33,711 nt of DNA from a virus. The stretch spans positions 1-33,711 of IMG/VR virus record IMGVR_UViG_3300007609_000924. One strand, given 5' to 3'. Shown here piece by piece: positions 8,201-19,366 of the stretch (positions within the stretch are counted from its first letter, which is position 1; every line of letters starts with the position of its first letter). The notes beneath the pieces were generated by a model. That model made no database searches. It had not been told where the DNA came from and was given only the letters and a program-made list of their open reading frames with translations. Made by a program: the position numbers and the translations under genes.

Positions 8201-8902
8201 ATGACAGACAAACAACGAAAAAACTTAGAGATAGTTAACGCTGGGTTTGCCAATGGCATATCAACCCAGCTGGCAAATAAACAAGCTATATTCGGTGCAG
8301 ATGCTAGATTAACCACAGAAGAAAAACAATCTATTATTGACGACGCTGCATTTCATTATGGAGAATTTCTTCGAGCATTAGGAGTAGAGTGGGAACAAGA
8401 TCCAAACTCAGACAATACGCCTCGCAGAGTTGCTAAAGCATATGTTAATGATTTATGGCGCGGTCGTTATGAGCCAATGTCAGATATTACTTCGTTTCCG
8501 AGTGACGGATATGATGGTATTGTGTTCGAAGGAGGAATTCCATTAACATCAATGTGTAGCCATCATCATCAAACCGTCGAGGGATTGTGCCACATTGCAT
8601 ATATTCCAGCAGAAAAAGGAAATGTAGTTGGGCTAAGTAAATTGAATCGCGTTGTTGAACATTTCGGCCGAAGAGGTGCAATACAAGAACAATTAACAGT
8701 TGCAATTCAACATGCTGTCAATGAACTTATTTCAGACAATAAAGGAGTTGCTGTAATGATCGAAGCAACACACAATTGTGTATCTTGTAGAGGTGTTAAG
8801 CACCGTGGAGCTTCAATGAAAACTGCAAAATTATCCGGGGCATTCTTAGACGATGGTAATGCTCGATCAGAATTTTATCAATTTATCAAAGGTTATAATT
8901 AA
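8201..8902 (+). CDS. folE: GTP cyclohydrolase I (FolE)
   Basis: 233 aa. It converts GTP to 7,8-dihydroneopterin triphosphate, the first step of folate and 7-deazaguanine synthesis. Zinc ligands are C119 and H122 in SMCSHHHQTVEG and C193 in HNCVSCRGVKHRG; YIPAEKGNVVGLSKLNRVV (134-152) and RRGAIQEQLT are family blocks. Its position directly before queD and close to queE points to deazaguanine rather than folate metabolism. The first 40 residues are an extra extension without motif. The ATG at 8201 lies in an AAGTTACATG context shared with other starts here. Confidence 0.95.
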   Translation: MTDKQRKNLEIVNAGFANGISTQLANKQAIFGADARLTTEEKQSIIDDAAFHYGEFLRALGVEWEQDPNSDNTPRRVAKAYVNDLWRGRYEPMSDITSFPSDGYDGIVFEGGIPLTSMCSHHHQTVEGLCHIAYIPAEKGNVVGLSKLNRVVEHFGRRGAIQEQLTVAIQHAVNELISDNKGVAVMIEATHNCVSCRGVKHRGASMKTAKLSGAFLDDGNARSEFYQFIKGYN

Positions 8903-8903
8903 T

Positions 8904-9368
8904 ATGGCAAAATTTACATCAACAAAACTATTTGACGGTTACTCTACATGTTTCCGACAATGGCGCGCAGATGGCACACATTGCAAATATCTACATGGCT
9001 ACGCGGTATCATTTAGAGTATGGTTTGCGGGAGAATTAGATCACAGAAACTGGATATTTGACTTCGGTGGAATGAAACGTGCGAAAACAAAAATTCACGG
9101 TATGGCCCCAAAAGACTATTTTACATATCTTTTAGATCATACAACAGTTGTAGCAGAAGATGATCCACATTTACCACAATTCAAGCAAATGGATCAAGAT
9201 GGTATTATTCAACTTAGAATCCTCCCAGCTGTAGGATGTGAAAGGTTTGCGGAGTATTTATTTAATACAATAAATAATTTCTTAAAAGAAGAAACAAATG
9301 GCAGAGTTAAAGCGATTAAAGTAGAAGTATACGAACACGACCGTAATTCAGCAAGTTATGAAGAATAA
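8904..9368 (+). CDS. queD: 6-carboxytetrahydropterin synthase (QueD-like)
   Basis: 154 aa T-fold enzyme, expected to turn dihydroneopterin triphosphate into 6-carboxy-tetrahydropterin. HCKYLHGY (residues 26-33) holds the catalytic Cys C27; DHTTVVAEDDPH carries the Asp-His of the catalytic relay; GCERFAEYLF and VEVYEHDR are the C-terminal blocks. The usual HGH zinc pair reads HGY and the N-terminal His position reads STC (C16), so zinc binding is altered; I recall similar sequences in cyanophages. An in-frame start at 8853 exists, but 8904, one base after folE, gives the normal family N-terminus. Confidence 0.85.
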   Translation: MAKFTSTKLFDGYSTCFRQWRADGTHCKYLHGYAVSFRVWFAGELDHRNWIFDFGGMKRAKTKIHGMAPKDYFTYLLDHTTVVAEDDPHLPQFKQMDQDGIIQLRILPAVGCERFAEYLFNTINNFLKEETNGRVKAIKVEVYEHDRNSASYEE

Positions 9369-9378
9369 TGAAATATAT

Positions 9379-9735
9379 ATGTCACTGTATGATTATCTAG
9401 GTAAATCATCTAGAGACAGTGGACTAGGCAAAGAAGTGACTAAAACTGCAATAGAACAAGGTATTAAGATTAAATATAGATTATTACCAGCTGAGTCTCA
9501 AACACCTGAATATAAATATGTACACACATATCCAATATCATTTTTAAATGAATATTTTTCTAATAATACCGAACTAGCAAACAATACATTGTTACGAGTT
9601 AATGCATTGAAGCCATTAATGGATAGAATCAATGCATTAGAAGAAAAAATTAATCAGCTAATGCAAAATTATCATTATGATACCAATAATTATAATCGAA
9701 ATAATGAATCAGACATTGATGAACTGCCATTCTAA
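9379..9735 (+). CDS. uncharacterised phage protein
   Basis: 118 aa from ATG 9379 (MSLYDYLGKSSRDSGLG); an in-frame ATG at 9358 inside queD would add seven residues and lies in the AAGTTATG context, so the start is undecided. I favour 9379 because MSLYDYLGK looks like a natural N-terminus. The middle is mixed, the C-terminal part has a short coiled-coil-like segment (PLMDRINALEEKINQLMQ) and an Asn/Tyr-rich tail ending DELPF. No catalytic motif seen. It lies between queD and queE, so a link to base modification is conceivable but unsupported. Confidence 0.7.
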   Translation: MSLYDYLGKSSRDSGLGKEVTKTAIEQGIKIKYRLLPAESQTPEYKYVHTYPISFLNEYFSNNTELANNTLLRVNALKPLMDRINALEEKINQLMQNYHYDTNNYNRNNESDIDELPF

Positions 9736-9766
9736 ATACGAAATAAATAATTACTAAAATATAAAT

Positions 9767-10537
9767 ATGAACAAATTGTTAGATTATAATAAAACTTTGC
9801 CTGTTGTTGAAGTATATCCATGTGTACAATCAGAAGGTAGTCGACAAGGTATGCCTACAATTGCAATTCGCACTACAGGGTGCACACATCGGTGTTATTT
9901 TGGCGAAGGGGGCTGGTGCGATTCATGGTACACGAGTATTCATCCAGAAAAAGGCACATTTACATTCAATGATATAATCAAAATATATAATGACAATCCG
10001 CATATAAAAGAAATGATGTTAACTGGTGGATCTCCTACTATGCATTCAGGGTTAGTAAATGAGTTAGTTAACTTTGCATCTGAACGAGGCATAGTGGTAA
10101 CAATAGAAACAGAAGGAAGTCATTTTATTGAAACAGATATACCAATTGACTTAATTTCATTATCTCCGAAATTTTCAAATACTATACCAAAATTAGGAGT
10201 AGCAACCCCTGCAGGTAAAGAAACAACCCAACGGATGATAGATCAACACAATAAATTCAGATTAAATCATACGACAATAAAACAAATGATTGAATATCAC
10301 CATGATTATCATTATAAACCTGTTTGGGATGGGACTGAATATAATCTTAAAGAAATTGAAGAATTTAGAGTATTACATAACATACCGAAGTCAAAAACAT
10401 GGATTATGCCAGCTGGGGATCGTAGAGAAGAATTAATTAAAATATATCCAAAAACAATTGAAATGTGCACTAAACACGGATATAATTTTACCGGACGTGA
10501 ACATATAATGGCATATAACACAGAAAGAGGAGTTTAA
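9767..10537 (+). CDS. queE: 7-carboxy-7-deazaguanine synthase (QueE), radical SAM
   Basis: 256 aa. It converts 6-carboxy-tetrahydropterin to 7-carboxy-7-deazaguanine (CDG) with S-adenosylmethionine and a 4Fe-4S cluster. Family marks are VEVYPCVQSEGSRQGMP near the N-terminus, the cluster cysteines C39, C43 and C51 in CTHRCYFGEGGWCDSW, and MLTGGSPTMH (about 85-94), the SAM-binding GGxP block. The Cys spacing is CX3CX7C instead of the usual CX3CX2C; insertions at this place are known in some QueE proteins. With folE and queD it completes the route to CDG. Confidence 0.92.
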   Translation: MNKLLDYNKTLPVVEVYPCVQSEGSRQGMPTIAIRTTGCTHRCYFGEGGWCDSWYTSIHPEKGTFTFNDIIKIYNDNPHIKEMMLTGGSPTMHSGLVNELVNFASERGIVVTIETEGSHFIETDIPIDLISLSPKFSNTIPKLGVATPAGKETTQRMIDQHNKFRLNHTTIKQMIEYHHDYHYKPVWDGTEYNLKEIEEFRVLHNIPKSKTWIMPAGDRREELIKIYPKTIEMCTKHGYNFTGREHIMAYNTERGV

Positions 10538-11166: not shown

Positions 11167-11406
11167 ATGTGGATAGAACTACTCGGTTGGGTTAGCACGG
11201 TGCTGGTTTTATTTGGATTTATATTAAATTCATCACAAAGATTAGTACCTGCTATAATTGCTTGGATAATTGGAGACACGGGCTGGATTATATATGATAT
11301 TTTTATAACTAATTATAGTCATATGTTTCTTAGTTTTATTATAATAACAATCAATATATACGGAATATACAATGTATCAAAACATCGCATACCACAAAAA
11401 GACTAA
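11167..11406 (+). CDS. small membrane protein, three predicted TM segments
   Basis: 79 aa, almost entirely hydrophobic. Segments at about 5-20 (LLGWVSTVLVLFGFIL), 27-46 (VPAIIAWIIGDTGWIIYDIF) and 51-68 (MFLSFIIITINIYGIYNV) could span the membrane, with a basic C-terminus. The GWV...N...W.IGD.GW.IYD...N pattern resembles small PnuC/YgjV-type proteins, but I cannot assign a substrate. The last 35 bases overlap the start of the polymerase gene in another frame. Confidence 0.66.
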   Translation: MWIELLGWVSTVLVLFGFILNSSQRLVPAIIAWIIGDTGWIIYDIFITNYSHMFLSFIIITINIYGIYNVSKHRIPQKD

Positions 11407-13126
11407 TACAATTCATTTATGGGATGATGAAATTGGATATAAAAAATACAATTTTAAGCCATATGGTTATCTACCTGATGAGTCAGGTCAATACAAAACA
11501 TTGGACGGTATAAAGCTGAAACGTGTCAATGGCAACATTAAAAATGATCCAAACTCATATGAATCAGATCTAAATGAAGAAATGAGAACACTGATCGATG
11601 TATATTATGAATCGGATTTAGCATCAAATTCACATCGAGAATTATTTTTTGATATTGAAACTGCTAAAGACGAAAATGGATATTCTACACCAGACGATGT
11701 TCGCACAGAAATAAATGCAATTGCTTATTATGATAAACAACAAAATGATCGGCGAGTATTACTTCTAGACTCTAATAATGTTTTAAATCATGATACATAT
11801 CAAGGCGATGGATATAAAATCGAAGTATTCGATACAGAACAATCACTATTAACAAGGTTTTTAAACATATGGTCAAATATAGCTCCAACAATAGTAACAG
11901 GATGGAATAGTGACGGGTATGATATTCCATATTTAATAAATAGGTGTAAGCGAGTATTAGGTAAACAGTCAATTGACTCATTGTCTCCGGTAGGAATTGT
12001 AGAGTGGAACAAACACAAGGGGCAATATAAAATTTACGGAGTTTCTAGTTTAGACTACATTAAATTATATAAGAATTTTACGTATAGTGAATTGCCAAAT
12101 TACCGATTAGATACAGTCGCAAAAACTGAATTGGGCCGAGGAAAAGTAGAATATAACGGAGATTTAGATGAATTGTTCCGAGAAGATATTCACAAATTTG
12201 CATGGTACAACATGACTGATGTGGATTTGGTTGCTGATTTAGATGAAAAATTACAATTATTGAATTTGGCTCGAACTATATGTCATAAAGGCCACGTACC
12301 ATATGAAGATGTATATTACGCATCTAAATATCTAGATGGAGCGGCAATCGTAGATTTAAAACGTAACGGATACGTTGCTCCCAATAAACAATTTAGATTC
12401 ATAGAAGATGAAACGCCACAGGATGCATTAGCCGGAGCATATGTTATGCCACCGGTACCAGGGTTATATAAATGGATATATGATTTAGACTTAACATCAT
12501 TATATCCTAGTATTATCATGAGTTTGAATATTTCACCGGAAACTAAAGTAGGAGTAGTTCGAAATTGGAATCAAGAACAAATGTTAAGTAAAGACCCATT
12601 TGATGTTGCAGTTAGCGACGGTAATACATCAATCGATGTGAAAGATTTTAAGAAATGGCTTCGTGAAACAAAGTCTACCGTAGCTAGCAATGGAGCTATA
12701 TATTCTACCAAGAAAAAAGGTTTTCTGCCTGCTATTTTGGAAAAATGGTTTGATGAACGAGTTGAATTTAAGAACAAGCGTGATGAATACGAAGTAGGGT
12801 CAGAACAATACAAATTTTATGATGCCATGCAGCTCACACAGAAAGTGTTGCTTAATTCATTTTACGGAGTATTAGGACTCAAAACATTCCGGTTTCATGA
12901 TCTTGACAATGCAGGTGCTATCACCGCAACAGGACAGAGCATTATTAAATTCTCATCAAAAGTAATTAATAAATACTATGAAAAAGAAATAACAGAACGA
13001 GATCGATTGCACGAAATACATCTTGAAGATGGTACAGTTAAAAAATATAAAGGCTGGGATGACGTAAAAACGCAACGTGGTATCGTTAAAGTTTGTAATT
13101 TAAAGGAAACCGATGAAATTATTTAG
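11372..13126 (+). CDS. gp43A: family B DNA polymerase, N-terminal part (exonuclease, motifs A and B)
   Basis: 584 aa. The start MYQNI...TIHLWDDE matches the N-terminus of T4 gp43, so the 35-bp overlap with the previous gene is real. Exo I is FFDIETA (92-98), Exo II TGWNSDGYDIPYL, Exo III YNMTDVDLVADL; palm motif A is DLTSLYPSI with D373 and motif B KVLLNSFYG (491-499). The protein stops before motif C. The last 40 or so residues (LHEIHLEDG...KTQRGIVKVCNLKETDEII) are not expected in a gp43 at this place: T4 has about 57 residues from motif B to motif C, whereas 85 follow motif B here. They resemble the second half of a Hint/intein domain. The remainder of the enzyme is encoded at 14088. Confidence 0.93.
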   Translation: MYQNIAYHKKTNTIHLWDDEIGYKKYNFKPYGYLPDESGQYKTLDGIKLKRVNGNIKNDPNSYESDLNEEMRTLIDVYYESDLASNSHRELFFDIETAKDENGYSTPDDVRTEINAIAYYDKQQNDRRVLLLDSNNVLNHDTYQGDGYKIEVFDTEQSLLTRFLNIWSNIAPTIVTGWNSDGYDIPYLINRCKRVLGKQSIDSLSPVGIVEWNKHKGQYKIYGVSSLDYIKLYKNFTYSELPNYRLDTVAKTELGRGKVEYNGDLDELFREDIHKFAWYNMTDVDLVADLDEKLQLLNLARTICHKGHVPYEDVYYASKYLDGAAIVDLKRNGYVAPNKQFRFIEDETPQDALAGAYVMPPVPGLYKWIYDLDLTSLYPSIIMSLNISPETKVGVVRNWNQEQMLSKDPFDVAVSDGNTSIDVKDFKKWLRETKSTVASNGAIYSTKKKGFLPAILEKWFDERVEFKNKRDEYEVGSEQYKFYDAMQLTQKVLLNSFYGVLGLKTFRFHDLDNAGAITATGQSIIKFSSKVINKYYEKEITERDRLHEIHLEDGTVKKYKGWDDVKTQRGIVKVCNLKETDEII

Positions 13127-13127
13127 T

Positions 13128-13155
13128 GTATCTGTATAGTTTCAGTATCCGTATA
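13128..13155 (+). repeat. short direct repeat in the endonuclease leader
   Basis: GTATCTGTATA at 13128-13138 and GTATCCGTATA at 13145-13155, ten of eleven bases identical with a 17-base period, right after the gp43A stop. Purpose unknown; it could be a protein-binding site or a chance of the AT-rich leader. Confidence 0.4.
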
Positions 13156-13170
13156 TATATTTATATTAAA
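13156..13170 (+). promoter_or_regulatory. candidate late-type promoter motif before endonuclease gene
   Basis: TATATTTATATTAAA, identical over 15 bases to 4552-4566 and related to motifs at 14947, 24144, 30964 and 33115. An AAAAGGA Shine-Dalgarno-like sequence follows at 13168-13174, so this mobile gene seems to carry its own start signals. Confidence 0.38.
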
Positions 13171-13178
13171 AGGACATT

Positions 13179-13997
13179 ATGGATAAAGTAGAATGTTTAA
13201 TATGTAATAAAAAATTCAAACGAATTACAACAACACATTTACGCCATGTGCATGGAATATCATATGATGAATATTTTAAATTATTTCCGGATGCAATTAT
13301 AGAAACGCCTGCAATAACTCAAAAAAGAAAACAAACATTAGAAAATATGATTTTGAGATACGGGGTTGATACAGGAACACAAAAATGGAATGAATATATT
13401 TCAAAGCAAGCTGAGACAAATACATACGAATATAAAAGAAAAAAATATGGGTGGACTAAAGATGAATTTAATGAATACAATAAATCGAGAAGTCATAGTG
13501 GCTCATCAAACGGAAATTATGGCCGGGGCTTTTATAAAATTTGGGTAGAAAAATATGGAAAGGAGGTTGCAGATAAAAAGTTAAACGAGTTTAAAGAAAA
13601 AATATCGATTGCTAACACAGGCCGATCAGTTAATTTTTCAAAACAAGCATTGCAAAACATGCGAGAAGGGGCAATTGAACGTGTTAAAAGACAAGGCGGA
13701 CTGTTCATTTCATATAATCCAAATTCAATACCAATCATCGAAGAATATGGAAAACTTCGCGGATATAACTTCCAACACGCTGAAAATGGCGGAGAATATA
13801 ATGTTTGTGGTTATTTTGTCGATGGATATGATAAAGAAAAAAATGTTGTAATTGAATATGATGAAAAACATCATTTTACTAAAAATGGAGTATTAAAAGA
13901 CCGAGATGTTATACGGCAACAAGATATAATGAATGAGTTAAGTTGTAAATTCATTCGTATAAATTATAAAGGAGAAATAACAGAATATGAAAATTAA
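13179..13997 (+). CDS. free-standing homing endonuclease, EDxHD (Vsr-like) type
   Basis: 272 aa inserted between the two parts of the polymerase gene. N-terminus: a C2H2-like finger (C6, C9, H20, H23/H25 in CLICNKKFKRITTTHLRHVH) followed by GISYDEYFKLFPDA, common in phage homing nucleases. Middle: a KISIANTGRS NUMOD-like DNA-binding segment (141-150). C-terminus: the nuclease core GYFVDGYD...VVIEYDEKHHF (211-233) and KDRDVIRQQDI (240-250), matching the EDxHD family related to very-short-patch repair nucleases, described in genes fractured around split inteins. It has an AAAAGGA leader, unlike most neighbours. Its end overlaps a 34-codon ORF that leads into gp43B. Confidence 0.87.
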   Translation: MDKVECLICNKKFKRITTTHLRHVHGISYDEYFKLFPDAIIETPAITQKRKQTLENMILRYGVDTGTQKWNEYISKQAETNTYEYKRKKYGWTKDEFNEYNKSRSHSGSSNGNYGRGFYKIWVEKYGKEVADKKLNEFKEKISIANTGRSVNFSKQALQNMREGAIERVKRQGGLFISYNPNSIPIIEEYGKLRGYNFQHAENGGEYNVCGYFVDGYDKEKNVVIEYDEKHHFTKNGVLKDRDVIRQQDIMNELSCKFIRINYKGEITEYEN

Positions 13998-14091
13998 AAA
14001 AATTATAAAAGGGAATGTCGGTGTGGATACGAGTCACTTTATCAATGCAACAGGTGGTAAAGCAGAGTACTCGTTTTACACCGACACGTGA
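13987..14091 (+). other. 34-codon ORF carrying the first half of polymerase motif C
   Basis: ATG at 13987 overlaps the endonuclease end by 11 bases; the TGA at 14089-14091 overlaps the gp43B GTG (GTGA). It reads MKIKKIIKGNVGVDTSHF..., then AEYSFYTDT. The final YTDT is the start of the family B motif C (YTDTDS), whose TDS is in another frame in gp43B. Relative to an intact ACACGGATTCG, five extra bases (TGACG or an equivalent register) separate the halves. MKIKKIIK resembles the beginning of split-intein C fragments, but the expected terminal HN is absent. It may be a translated coupling peptide, a remnant, or part of an RNA element. Confidence 0.55.
14016..14086 (+). repeat. inverted repeat/hairpin just upstream of gp43B start
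   Basis: TGTCGGTGT (14016-14024) pairs with ACACCGACA (14078-14086), then after a 4/3-base internal loop ACGAGT (14029-14034) pairs with ACTCGT (14069-14074): 15 base pairs, G+C-rich for this genome, enclosing 34 bases. The 3' arm is the sequence encoding YTDT of motif C, and the GTG start of gp43B begins two bases after it. It could mask the start, be part of a ribozyme, or be a scar of the insertion. Confidence 0.8.
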
Positions 14092-14930
14092 CGGATTCGA
14101 CATTTGTTTCTAGTTTACCACTCATAGAAAAACGGCATCCGGGATTTGATGAAACAGATGAACAATTCATGATTGACAAAACTAATGATATTGCATCTGA
14201 AATACAAAGCCACGTTAATGCAATGTATGATCAGTATGCTGTGGTATTTCATAACACTGCCACACATCGCTGGCAAATTAAACAAGAATATGTTGCAAAG
14301 TCAGGTTTATGGATAGCTAAGAAGCGGTATGCGCAGTGGGTTATATTTAAAGAAGGAAAGCCAACCAATAAACTAGATATAAAAGGATTAGACGTAGTTA
14401 GGTCAAGTTTTCCGGCTGATTTTAAAAAGATTATGACTGAAACTTTATGGATGATACTCAAACAAGTAGACAAACAAACTACGTCTGATTTAATTTTAAA
14501 GTTCAAAGATAACATTCATGATTCTGATATATTAAATGTAATGAAGAATACCGGAGTAAAAGAAATAAGCAAATATACAAAAAACCGCAATCCGTTTACT
14601 GGTTATATAACAGGTACGCCAATTCATGTAAAATCTGCAATTAATTTTAATGATTTAATTAATAAATTTAATATACGAAACTGCACCACAATAACAAATG
14701 GCGAAAAAATTAAATGGGCATATTTGAAAAATAACCCATATGGATTCGACACGATGGCTTTACGAGGACACGAAGACCCCACAGAGATAATAGAATTTGT
14801 TGAAACATATATAGATCGAGACAAAATCTTCGATCGGGAACTAAGAGGCAAATTAGATGACTTTTATTCGGCAATGAACTGGGGAATATTACCACAAAAC
14901 AACAATATGGGAAAATTCTTTAAATTTTAA
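14088..14930 (+). CDS. gp43B: family B DNA polymerase, C-terminal part (motif C, thumb)
   Basis: 280 aa from a GTG start; the frame is closed upstream at 14058-14060, and the first in-frame ATG would delete motif C. It begins MTDSTFVSSLP, so it retains TDS of motif C but lacks the preceding Asp. KSGLWIAKKRYAQWV (about 70-84) is the KKRY DNA-binding motif. The C-terminal half is the thumb region, and the tail MGKFFKF resembles a clamp-binding peptide like the gp43 C-terminus. Together with gp43A it adds up to 864 aa, near T4 gp43 (898). In some Aeromonas T4-like phages gene 43 is split into two cistrons that form a working enzyme. Confidence 0.88.
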   Translation: MTDSTFVSSLPLIEKRHPGFDETDEQFMIDKTNDIASEIQSHVNAMYDQYAVVFHNTATHRWQIKQEYVAKSGLWIAKKRYAQWVIFKEGKPTNKLDIKGLDVVRSSFPADFKKIMTETLWMILKQVDKQTTSDLILKFKDNIHDSDILNVMKNTGVKEISKYTKNRNPFTGYITGTPIHVKSAINFNDLINKFNIRNCTTITNGEKIKWAYLKNNPYGFDTMALRGHEDPTEIIEFVETYIDRDKIFDRELRGKLDDFYSAMNWGILPQNNNMGKFFKF

Positions 14931-16914: not shown

Positions 16915-18117
16915 ATGACAAATAAAGACATTAGAACAGTATGGTATTTTTCGCTAGAACCACTCAAAGCCAGATACACATATCAATTATCAAAAGAGTG
17001 GATGCCGGCAACATTTGCCCCATATGAGAAAGCTAATAAACTAAAATTTGTTGATGTTCCAGGAGAATTTGATCCAGATCAGCAAATTAAAGTAGGCGCA
17101 GTATTAGATGCAGTCGGTCGAGGTAAGTTTGCTATGAGTCAATGTAGCAATTTCTTGGACATGTTGAATAACGATTTAGTTAAAGACGGAGATGTGTTAT
17201 TTCTGCAAGACTATTGGCATCCTGGTATTGAATCTATATTATATGCATTAGACTTATATGGTATCAATGTTAAAATATATGCAATGCTCCACGCACAATC
17301 AGTAGATGAATATGATTTCACATGGCCCATGCGAAATTGGATGCGAGGCTTTGAATTAGGTTTAGATCAGAGAATGGCTGGTATATTTGTCGGTTCGACA
17401 ATTCATAAAGAACAATTAAGAGCAGCAGGATTTAAAGCCCCAATTCATGTAGTTTCATTGCCATTACATAAAGAGTTAACTAAGCAGAAGTTACCTGGGT
17501 ATAAAGAGCATTCGCTACGAAAAGAAAATTATGTAGTATATTCAAGTCGTCTAGACAAAGAAAAGAATCCATTCTTCATGATAGAAGTTGCAGAACAATT
17601 CTTAGATGAAAATGAATTATGGGAATGGCACGTAACAACATCCGGTCAGAGTTTTAAATCAATGTTGCCGGGAGCTATAGAGGCATTAGAAACACTGGCT
17701 AAAAAACAACCTAGATTCAAATTATTAAATAATTTAACGAAAGAACAATATTATAATGAATTAGCATTAGCGAAAATTCAATTTAATAGTTCATTGCAGG
17801 ACTATGTGTCATGGACAGTGTTAGAGTCAACTACATTTGGCTGTGAATTAGTATTTCCAGACTTCAGATCATTTCCAGAATTTATTCCTCAGAATAAATT
17901 ATATAAACCATTCAATGTCAAATCAGCATTACATACTTTAAATAATGTTAAAACTACAAACAGATCTGGCATTTATTATAATTTTCCTGACATATCAGAT
18001 TTAGGTAGACGAATGGAAGCATATATTATTTCCAATGACATTACGCAAGAGTTAAATGTATGGCATGAGTCTGCATATTGTACGCATTTATTAAATACAC
18101 AAGGAATACATGAATAA
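16915..18117 (+). CDS. GT-B glycosyltransferase-like protein
   Basis: 400 aa. N-terminal half with VWYFSLEPLKARYTYQLSKEW and GDVLFLQDYWHPGIESILYALDLYG, then YAMLHAQSVDEYDFTWPMRNW and IFVGSTIHKEQLRAAGF; the C-terminal half opens with VVYSSRLDKEKNPFFMIEVAEQF, the typical GT4 linker, and later has SLQDYVSWTVLESTTFGCELVFPD, where the E of VLES is in the family acidic position. It overlaps the DpdA-like gene by eight bases, unlike the other glycosyltransferases that cluster after 24 kb. A role in decorating DNA is therefore possible; glycosylation of another target is equally open. Confidence 0.72.
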   Translation: MTNKDIRTVWYFSLEPLKARYTYQLSKEWMPATFAPYEKANKLKFVDVPGEFDPDQQIKVGAVLDAVGRGKFAMSQCSNFLDMLNNDLVKDGDVLFLQDYWHPGIESILYALDLYGINVKIYAMLHAQSVDEYDFTWPMRNWMRGFELGLDQRMAGIFVGSTIHKEQLRAAGFKAPIHVVSLPLHKELTKQKLPGYKEHSLRKENYVVYSSRLDKEKNPFFMIEVAEQFLDENELWEWHVTTSGQSFKSMLPGAIEALETLAKKQPRFKLLNNLTKEQYYNELALAKIQFNSSLQDYVSWTVLESTTFGCELVFPDFRSFPEFIPQNKLYKPFNVKSALHTLNNVKTTNRSGIYYNFPDISDLGRRMEAYIISNDITQELNVWHESAYCTHLLNTQGIHE

Positions 18118-19366
18118 AAAAGACTTTTTATACATTCCATCATTGTCAGCTGGTTCTATGGTGTCAGCTTTCAAGAAAAATACTAAATTTTCAGATGGAA
18201 CTACAATGCGATTTTTCTCAAAAGAATATCCAGAACAATGGCGCCATCCATATTTCCTAGTAACCGCCGGCCATCATTATAAGAAAATGGATTTCCGTCA
18301 ACAGTTAGGATTAGATGACGGTACATTTGTATTCGGAGACTCTGGTGGATTCCAAATTGCAACTGGTGCACTAAAATGGGATGGGACTATCAGAGAAAAG
18401 ATATTTCATTGGTTAGAAGCTAATAGTGACGTAGCAGCTAATTTAGATATACCGCCTCGAGTAACATTTGAAAATCGATTCAATGATGCAATGGATATAT
18501 CATTTGATAATTTTAAATGGTTTGAAAAACATCAATCAGGTAAAACTAAATTTCTCAACGTAATACAAGGAACATTTAATGAAGAATATTCTACTTGGTA
18601 TCATAAATTCAAAGATTTTGATTTTAACGGCTGGTGTATAGGCGGTCCTAAGAAATTAGTAGATTTCATGTATGTGATTGCACTCATGCTGCAAGAAAGA
18701 GAATTCGAAAAGAACCATGTACAATACATACATTTATTGGGCATTTCAAAGATATCTGATTTCTTTATTCTAGGAACTATACAGCATTTATTAAACGGAT
18801 TAACTGGTGGTAGAGTGCAGCTTATGTCAGATTCGTCTTCTCCGGGCCAATATCCAGTATTTGGTACATATTTGCATTCAAGTAATTACAAGACACAGAC
18901 ATTTACGGAATTATATTTTCCTAAAAATGCAGAGTATCGCCGAAAAACTCATATCAAACAAGGTAAAGAAGGAATTGTTGATATCGATAAAACTAAACAT
19001 GTTGCGTGTAGTATTGAATGTCCAGCATGTAATGATTTTACATATGAATACCTAGGAGGCCAGACGTCAACTGGTTTAGACAGATATTCACAAGAAGGTA
19101 TGCCTAGAATGGTAGTTCATAACGTGCACATATACTGTGAAATGGTTAAGGATATCAATAAATTAACCGAGCACCATGTAGAGTTACTAGAAACAGTATT
19201 ACCGAAAAATCTTTACGATGTTATATTATCATTGCATGAAATGTTTGCATCGCCGGATGACGCAATGAAAGTATATTCAACATATAAAAAGACTTATAAG
19301 AAATTCGGCGGCGATTCAATATCAACTACCGATGCAAATAAATTCAACGAATTCTTTAAATTTTAA
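18110..19366 (+). CDS. dpdA: DpdA-like DNA deazaguanine transglycosylase (TGT family)
   Basis: 418 aa, related to tRNA-guanine transglycosylase. FGDSGGFQ (75-82) has the TGT active-site Asp (D77), NVIQGT (150-155) and CIGGP (176-180) are substrate-binding loops, LMSDSSS (238-244) gives D241 at the nucleophile-region position, and C300, C304 and C307 (ACSIECPACNDF) with a later NVHIYC His form the zinc site. Phage and bacterial DpdA enzymes swap guanine for 7-deazaguanine bases in DNA and protect it from restriction. FolE, QueD and QueE are encoded 8-10 kb upstream, which favours a DNA-modifying role over tRNA. Confidence 0.85.
   Translation: MNKKDFLYIPSLSAGSMVSAFKKNTKFSDGTTMRFFSKEYPEQWRHPYFLVTAGHHYKKMDFRQQLGLDDGTFVFGDSGGFQIATGALKWDGTIREKIFHWLEANSDVAANLDIPPRVTFENRFNDAMDISFDNFKWFEKHQSGKTKFLNVIQGTFNEEYSTWYHKFKDFDFNGWCIGGPKKLVDFMYVIALMLQEREFEKNHVQYIHLLGISKISDFFILGTIQHLLNGLTGGRVQLMSDSSSPGQYPVFGTYLHSSNYKTQTFTELYFPKNAEYRRKTHIKQGKEGIVDIDKTKHVACSIECPACNDFTYEYLGGQTSTGLDRYSQEGMPRMVVHNVHIYCEMVKDINKLTEHHVELLETVLPKNLYDVILSLHEMFASPDDAMKVYSTYKKTYKKFGGDSISTTDANKFNEFFKF

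Follow-up and report, generated by a model that had tools for sequence, protein, structure and literature searches.

How does a phage make a replicative DNA polymerase from a gene that is interrupted twice, and what is the extra sequence at the first break doing? These questions are raised by the window analysed here, the whole 33.7-kb contig (33,711 nucleotides) of a T4-like phage. Its gp43A ORF (11372-13126; on the plus strand, like the other parts of the polymerase locus) encodes the N-terminal two thirds of a family B DNA polymerase and ends with ...NKYYEKEI, followed by TERDRLHEIHLEDGTVKKYKGWDDVKTQRGIVKVCNLKETDEII and a stop codon. gp43A proper (11372-12991), which reaches as far as the loop that follows motif B, comprises the exonuclease and the palm and fingers of the enzyme, a family B polymerase of the T4-like type, and matches Pfam DNA_pol_B and DNA_pol_B_exo1. 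Residues 1-546 are 89% identical to the intact polymerase of L001 which, with L002 (87%), is the closest uninterrupted relative; both are tail-free and contiguous as ...NRYYERETGRDHFINATGKRAEYAFYTDTDS. Compared with these two, the window carries 44 more residues on gp43A (residues 541-584, encoded at 12992-13123 and followed by the stop TAG at 13124-13126), a nuclease gene, about 14 residues opening gp43B, and 5 nt within motif C. Elsewhere in the window, at 8201-10537 and 18110-19366, FolE-, QueD- and QueE-like genes and a tRNA-guanine-transglycosylase/DpdA-like gene were recognised by reading only, which suggests 7-deazaguanine modification of the phage DNA; no tRNA genes were found in the window.

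The gp43A tail and its partner on the next gene

The first-pass annotation had proposed that gp43A carries an extra C-terminal tail, and this tail is genuine: residues 541-584 have counterparts of the same pattern, in the same loop, in ten other gp43 lineages. That it might be an ordinary insertion of related polymerases is ruled out, since it is missing from 80 of the 80 closest polymerase relatives and from 134 of 134 distinct intact gp43 controls (the search for these controls demanded YxDTDS). Syn1-type polymerases seem to match up to residue 578, but this is a forced alignment and they have no insertion. The two ORFs that follow are as earlier described, one encoding a nuclease (13179-13997) and the other starting with MKIKKIIK (13987-14091). 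The latter opens gp43B with a head of roughly 16 residues, MKIKKIIKGNVGVDTS (13987-14034), which overlaps the end of the nuclease gene and is preceded by a putative SD, AAGGAG (13969-13974).

Tails of about 45 residues form a family found in 11 split gp43 lineages, the carriers besides the window being L088, L173, L178, L182, L239, L240/L344, L316, L330, L345 and the 484-kb phage LR756508. In all of them the insertion occupies one shared loop between motifs B and C, flanked by the helix that follows motif B and the strand of motif C; in uninterrupted relatives from the same subgroups this loop is short (e.g. KYNKELGTPDLDSNIYIDTDS). Each tail is paired with an 'MKIKKI' head carried by the following gene. 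Tails conform roughly to V.LE(D/N)G......N..V.V.RNG....IKA.EL.E.DD.I, and the pattern of the head, M.IK.I...V.VD, is conserved in ten lineages. L088 was reached via the nuclease search, and has counterparts of both tail and head as well as a homologous nuclease. A tblastn search of 50,697 phage records with the tail, or with tail plus head, gave no convincing match; the tail alignment is too variable for a degenerate scan of the collection. The gp43 of Vibrio phage PC-Liy1/PVA8, split by an HNH gene, was considered as a carrier and has no such tail.

Two of the carriers show additional interruptions. The polymerase gene of L088 (422-5837) is in three pieces: it is interrupted once after residue 528, by an HNH-type ORF, and again near motif C, by the half-Hint/endonuclease split. 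In the 484-kb phage (LR756508.1; L086, L368:3911-5785) the polymerase has, besides the half-Hint loop split, complete inteins at motifs B and C, the latter a cis intein, and the clamp loader (L368:7161-8501) also appears to hold an intein.

Profile comparisons and a predicted structure support a relationship of tail and head to the block-B half of the Hint (intein) fold. With hhalign, tail plus head or tail alone matched five intein block-B regions at 88-89% probability and a score of 34.8 (about 35), against 17.3 for the best of 300 column shuffles and 11.2 for the reversed profile. A PDB profile search with tail plus head placed the inteins 2lcj, 5o9j and 2cw7 as the top three, with weak E-values of 0.15-0.56; Pfam Intein_splicing matched the L316 and L240 members (E 0.0015 and 0.0053, both below the curated cut-off), and the tail profile matched block B of genuine inteins at unrelated loci (E 1.9e-4). 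For the L330 tail, AlphaFold2 run with nine sequences predicts a helix and four strands (pLDDT 75). Inteins take all of the first ten places in a Foldseek search with this model (prob 0.77-0.99, E-values 0.2-1.4), the PolB1 intein of the Aeromonas phage Aes123 among them, at an rmsd of 1.4-3.4 over about 42 columns; VIA-align gave a best Z of 5.6, weak if taken alone. Searched alone against PDB sequences and NCBIfam the tail had no intein match, the link being visible only with the tail-plus-head profile, which was built from sequences joined in silico, or in profile-profile comparison; single-sequence Hint matches are weak. Profile comparison and structure prediction alike agree with the first-pass annotation in pointing to inteins.

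Four lineages keep tail and head with no recognised nuclease separating them: L178, where a weakly glycosyltransferase-like ORF takes that place, L173, with three small ORFs, L316, with about 16 nt, and LR756508, with several unrelated ORFs. In four pairs the tails have pN below pS, values which are rough and indicative only, the sequences being short. This retention without a nuclease, together with pN below pS, argues for a role, the simplest being to keep gp43A and gp43B together; the 44-residue tail and the head of about 16 residues would most likely pair as a small beta domain that holds the chains without splicing. The alternative is that both pieces are inert leftovers of a decayed intein and that the chains assemble via the polymerase fold alone, as in Aeromonas phage 25, whose split 43A and 43B halves reportedly co-purify and show activity (PMC2988022); one-sided additions are, besides, common after nuclease insertion. 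We regard this as unlikely, though deserving of some weight, because the pattern is conserved in 11 lineages, because both pieces persist in the four lineages without a recognised nuclease, and because of the pN values, short and rough as those comparisons are.

The stop codon inside motif C

The 34-codon ORF at 13987-14091 stops within motif C, at YTDT*, and the polymerase resumes after 5 nt, two frames on, as DSTFV.... The motif reads TAC ACC GAC ACG TGA CG GAT TCG. The presumed take-off codon, ACG (14086-14088), is the Thr of YTDT and lies directly 5' of the stop TGA (14089-14091). The 5-nt insertion TGACG (14089-14093), which includes the stop and, overlapping it, the presumed landing codon ACG (14091-14093), is absent from L001 (ACTGACACAGATTCG). 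With the resuming GAT at 14094, the codon of the second catalytic Asp in motif C, begins gp43C (14094-14930, 278 codons; Pfam DNA_pol_B), which supplies the remainder of the polymerase and is 85% identical to L001. This part of the protein is under strong purifying selection, with a dN/dS of 0.057 between the window and L001 and of 0.06-0.15 in other pairs.

Motif C (YxDT|DS) is broken in eight lineages, the window and seven others, by an insert of 5, 6 or about 42 nt that carries a stop. The further 5-nt breaks are those of L239 (ACG TA ACT GAT), L240/L344 (ACC TA ACT GAT), L330 (ACT TG ACT GAT), L345 (ACC TG ATT GAT) and L182 (ACG TA ATG GAT), and L173 has a 6-nt break (ACG TAA ATG GAT). In L316 (3902-4012) a gap of about 42 nt lies between two GAT codons; a first stem-loop is followed there by a CTCCCCG/CGGGGAG stem-loop around the stop, and GGGGAG stands shortly before the landing codon. 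The stop is directly 3' of the take-off codon in the window and six lineages, and inside the gap in L316. The DNA pattern search itself demanded a stop; the window, L239, L240, L182, L173 and L316 were found independently of the pattern, and the pattern matches L333, L334, L342, L349-L352 and L354 proved to be non-polymerases. Since L088, L178, L253 and L275 have a split gp43 with tail and/or head and an intact motif C, the loop split and the motif C break are separable.

Directly before the break, an RNA stem pairs head codons (V-x-V-D) with motif C codons (Y-x-D). In the window its left arm, GTCGGTGTGGATACGAGT (14017-14034), lies within the head, and its right arm (14069-14085) consists of the motif C strand codons (...ACTCGTTTTACACCGAC). 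Folding z-scores are -3.85 for the window and -6.6, -8.2, -3.3, -3.9, -1.8 and -6.6 for other broken loci, the value of -1.8 belonging to the weak hairpin of L330, as compared with -1.3 to +0.7 for the four split loci with an intact motif C. Arms from the same lineage pair with a mean of -18.6 kcal/mol versus -13.2 for mismatched arms, and 2 of 5040 reassignments were as good. The two arms covary: across 8 lineages, in a test for which the arms were excised and joined by hand and for which seven broken lineages are a small sample, 93.8% of cells pair, both sides have changed in 5 of 12 pairs, and double-change cells number 8 versus 2.7 in shuffles (0 of 500 as high). Pairing is lost when the partner is slid. 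Heads of split but unbroken loci give duplexes of -3.1 to -6.6 kcal/mol, and the 134 intact genes average -5.4 with a best of -11.2, so that none equals the weakest broken locus (-11.6). Further, the variable head residue (G, H, D or N) tracks its paired motif C codon, so that selection acts on the RNA. An Rfam scan of 12800-14300 returned no known RNA family or intron.

We propose that the hairpin probably refolds behind the ribosome, and that peptidyl-tRNA-Thr hops from ACG over the stop to ACG. In the window a 5-nt hop (ACG-TG-ACG) would restore Y-T-D-T-D-S (GAC ACG|TGACG|GAT), and the same hop would restore the exact YxDTDS in the other 5-nt lineages; L173 would need 6 nt and L316 about 42. 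Take-off and landing codons are identical in the window (ACG/ACG), L330 (ACT/ACT) and L316 (GAT/GAT), and are synonymous Thr codons in L239 and L240. With regard to a nascent-peptide signal of the gene 60 type, the MKIKKI... peptide of the head is conserved, but in unbroken loci too. The landing codon is Thr in only four of the seven short-gap lineages, being ATG in L182 and L173 and ATT in L345, so that re-pairing would be poor in these three; ATG also permits reinitiation.

Termination and reinitiation would be another way to produce gp43C. The 34-codon ORF would then end at YTDT and translation restart at the overlapping GTG (14088), giving a gp43C that begins fMet-T-D-S and a motif C shared by two chains, with the hairpin coupling the ORFs. 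Stop and start do overlap in the window (GTGA), which makes reinitiation possible there, and in L182 (TAATG); they are adjacent in L173 (TAAATG), and a TTG overlaps the stop in L330. However, no ATG, GTG or TTG restart is available in L239 and L240/L344 (GTA ACT GAT; CTA ACT GAT) or in L345 (CTG ATT GAT), which have the same hairpin, stop and spacing, and a restart would put the chain break between the two Asp of the metal-binding turn. We find reinitiation rather improbable, and keep GTG 14088 as a simple alternative start only as a rival to the hop, because sister lineages have no start codon at that place.

Other forms of recoding, by a -1 or +2 frameshift or by stop readthrough, would yield DT(xx)DS or DT(x)DS, that is, a motif C with one or two extra residues. 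The change of frame permits such a frameshift in all 5-nt lineages, while the 6-nt allele of L173 would require readthrough of the stop. There is no slippery sequence, DTDS is contiguous in all intact relatives (in a control search that demanded YxDTDS), and an upstream refolding hairpin favours forward movement (PMC5009743), all of which makes these schemes improbable in our judgement.

Missing splicing residues and the intervening nuclease

The first-pass annotation had noted that block A and the terminal HN are not visible in the window, and both are absent in every member of the family. Block A with its N-terminal Cys/Ser/Thr is missing throughout, the tail starting right after the extein helix, and no head has HN before a Cys/Ser/Thr (that of the window runs ...VGVDTS|HFINATG). 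The TxxH histidine of block B, present in A4 and L361, occurs in no tail, and no conserved Cys/Ser/Thr nucleophile was found at either junction in A3/A5. Block-B homology without block A, TxxH and HN points to a domesticated half-Hint, which is probably a non-covalent, non-splicing joiner; without these elements the tail, if it does anything, would act as a binding surface and not as a splicing enzyme. Of the earlier suggestion that the tail is a decayed or atypical split-intein fragment, the relation of tail and MKIKKI head to Hint therefore holds (hhalign, Pfam, Foldseek), and a splicing-competent split intein does not. 'Decayed' is also not quite apt, as the tail is kept in many lineages, including the four that lack a recognised nuclease.

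It is very doubtful that tail and head are an atypical yet active split intein that ligates gp43A to gp43B. Hint homology, the presence of nuclease relatives inside true split inteins, and the existence of an intein that can do without the usual N3 histidine (PMC10189870) would be compatible with activity, but the splicing elements listed above are missing, the two pieces total about 60 residues, and they are inserted in a surface or variable loop, not in a conserved motif.

The gene between the halves (13179-13997; putative SD AAGGA, 13170-13174) encodes a homing-endonuclease-like protein of 272 aa, 51-52% identical to the nuclease found at the same place in L239/L240. It has no Pfam or NCBIfam nuclease match. 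A short segment, residues 50-105, is 52% identical to a 'putative VSR endonuclease' of Aeromonas phages, and identity to nucleases inside split inteins is 34-38%. In L361 (YGD|TDS) and L363 (DTD|S), relatives of the window nuclease lie within complete split inteins whose insertion point is exactly motif C, and in Aeromonas phages an annotated VSR endonuclease accompanies a complete split intein at DTD|S. Together with the cis intein of LR756508, these cases make motif C appear a recurrent insertion site, in which case the 5-nt insertion would, as we guess, destroy the target of the nuclease. The motif C insertion would then probably also shield the gene from the nuclease, in line with what has been proposed for T4 gene 60 and mobA.

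Several further observations concern these elements. The inteins at PolB motif C in L361, L362, L360 and L363 (YGD|TDS, DTD|S) are complete, of the Ser type and accompanied by a nuclease related to that of the window, and are likely cousins of the ancestral full element. L330 (9940-10404) has a different, unannotated nuclease-like ORF between tail and head, with the same tail, head, hairpin and hop site. Also, the motif C Asp codon (window 14017-14093 and its broken relatives) is GAC in the seven short-gap broken loci and mostly GAT in intact relatives; in these loci the target stretch has undergone synonymous recoding in addition to being interrupted.

A broken pseudogene or a sequencing or assembly error, which could be suspected because the window allele was observed once, in a single metagenomic contig, is scarcely credible given like breaks in seven other lineages, several of them present in two to five independent assemblies, the low dN/dS of gp43C, and the 174,750-bp contig of L239, whose only PolB is the split one.

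Significance and relation to known systems

We read the locus as a mobile cassette that would break the replicative DNA polymerase gene of a T4-like phage at two places, with a homing-endonuclease gene in the motif B-C loop flanked by two pieces of a catalytically dead half-Hint. That the two breaks make one cassette, combining a half-Hint joiner, a hairpin-driven hop and protection from the nuclease, seems to us somewhat probable. The fuller statement is that of a recurrent cassette of T4-like polymerases, in which a non-splicing half-Hint joins the chains in trans and a hairpin-driven hop of 5-6 nt restores DTDS and shields the gene from its own endonuclease; we would give it an even chance. 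We infer the hop, the non-covalent association of the chains, and both the nuclease target and its protection.

To our knowledge, efficient natural translational bypassing in bacteria and phages rests on one example, T4 gene 60. One review hopes for cases in other T4-related phages (PMC3014915), and another states that counterparts have long been presumed, perhaps over shorter distances (PMC5009743). If our reading is correct, the cassette supplies about eight independent cases with a short gap, all in a single essential gene, and the natural variation of stem, stop, take-off and landing codons makes the rules of hopping directly testable. It would also be a case of a Hint domain of which only the non-catalytic half is left and is kept, probably as a trans-association tag; such a half may represent an intermediate stage in the fate of inteins and may be of use as a tool.

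The closest parallel is T4 39/mobA/60 with its 50-nt bypass (PMC3014915, PMC5009743). There, as in the window, a homing endonuclease gene splits a replication gene and a second, short insert lies downstream, with a stop right after the take-off codon, a preceding 5' stem-loop and proposed protection from the nuclease. In gene 60 the take-off and landing codons match, the nuclease split is upstream (PMC5009743, PMC3014915), the 5' stem-loop is regarded as a 'motor' that refolds behind the ribosome (PMC5009743), and the insert that is skipped is seen as a protection against a nuclease (PMC3014915, PMC5009743). The window family differs in having a gap of 5-6 nt instead of 50 (about 42 in L316, which is closer to gene 60 than the 5-nt cases), a Thr instead of a Gly codon, a catalytic motif of DNA polymerase as the site, another nuclease family and half-Hint flanks, the hop being deduced here from sequence. 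Hops of +5 and +6 are named in the title of a 1987 study cited in this literature (PMC5009743, PMC3014915).

Among Aeromonas phages, the fractured gp43 of Aes123, Aes144 and Aes508, with its VSR-type endonuclease and an intein of known structure (PDB 9hth), shares with the window the same polymerase, an endonuclease between the halves, Hint flanks and a related nuclease segment. Its intein, however, is complete (Ser1, TADH, HN) and sits at DTD|S, whereas the window keeps only the block-B half, in an upstream loop and without catalytic residues. In Aeh1 nrdA/mobE and in gp43A/B of phage 25 (PMC2988022) two chains must likewise assemble into one enzyme, but in the window the flanks are a recurring, recognisable half-Hint and motif C has a second interruption. 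The byp elements of Magnusiomyces mitochondria (PMC5009743) are, like the insert of the window, short and presumed to be skipped in translation; they are read by mitochondrial ribosomes and occur in many genes with little dependence on context, while in the window family a single site of a single phage gene is concerned, and it has a hairpin of its own.
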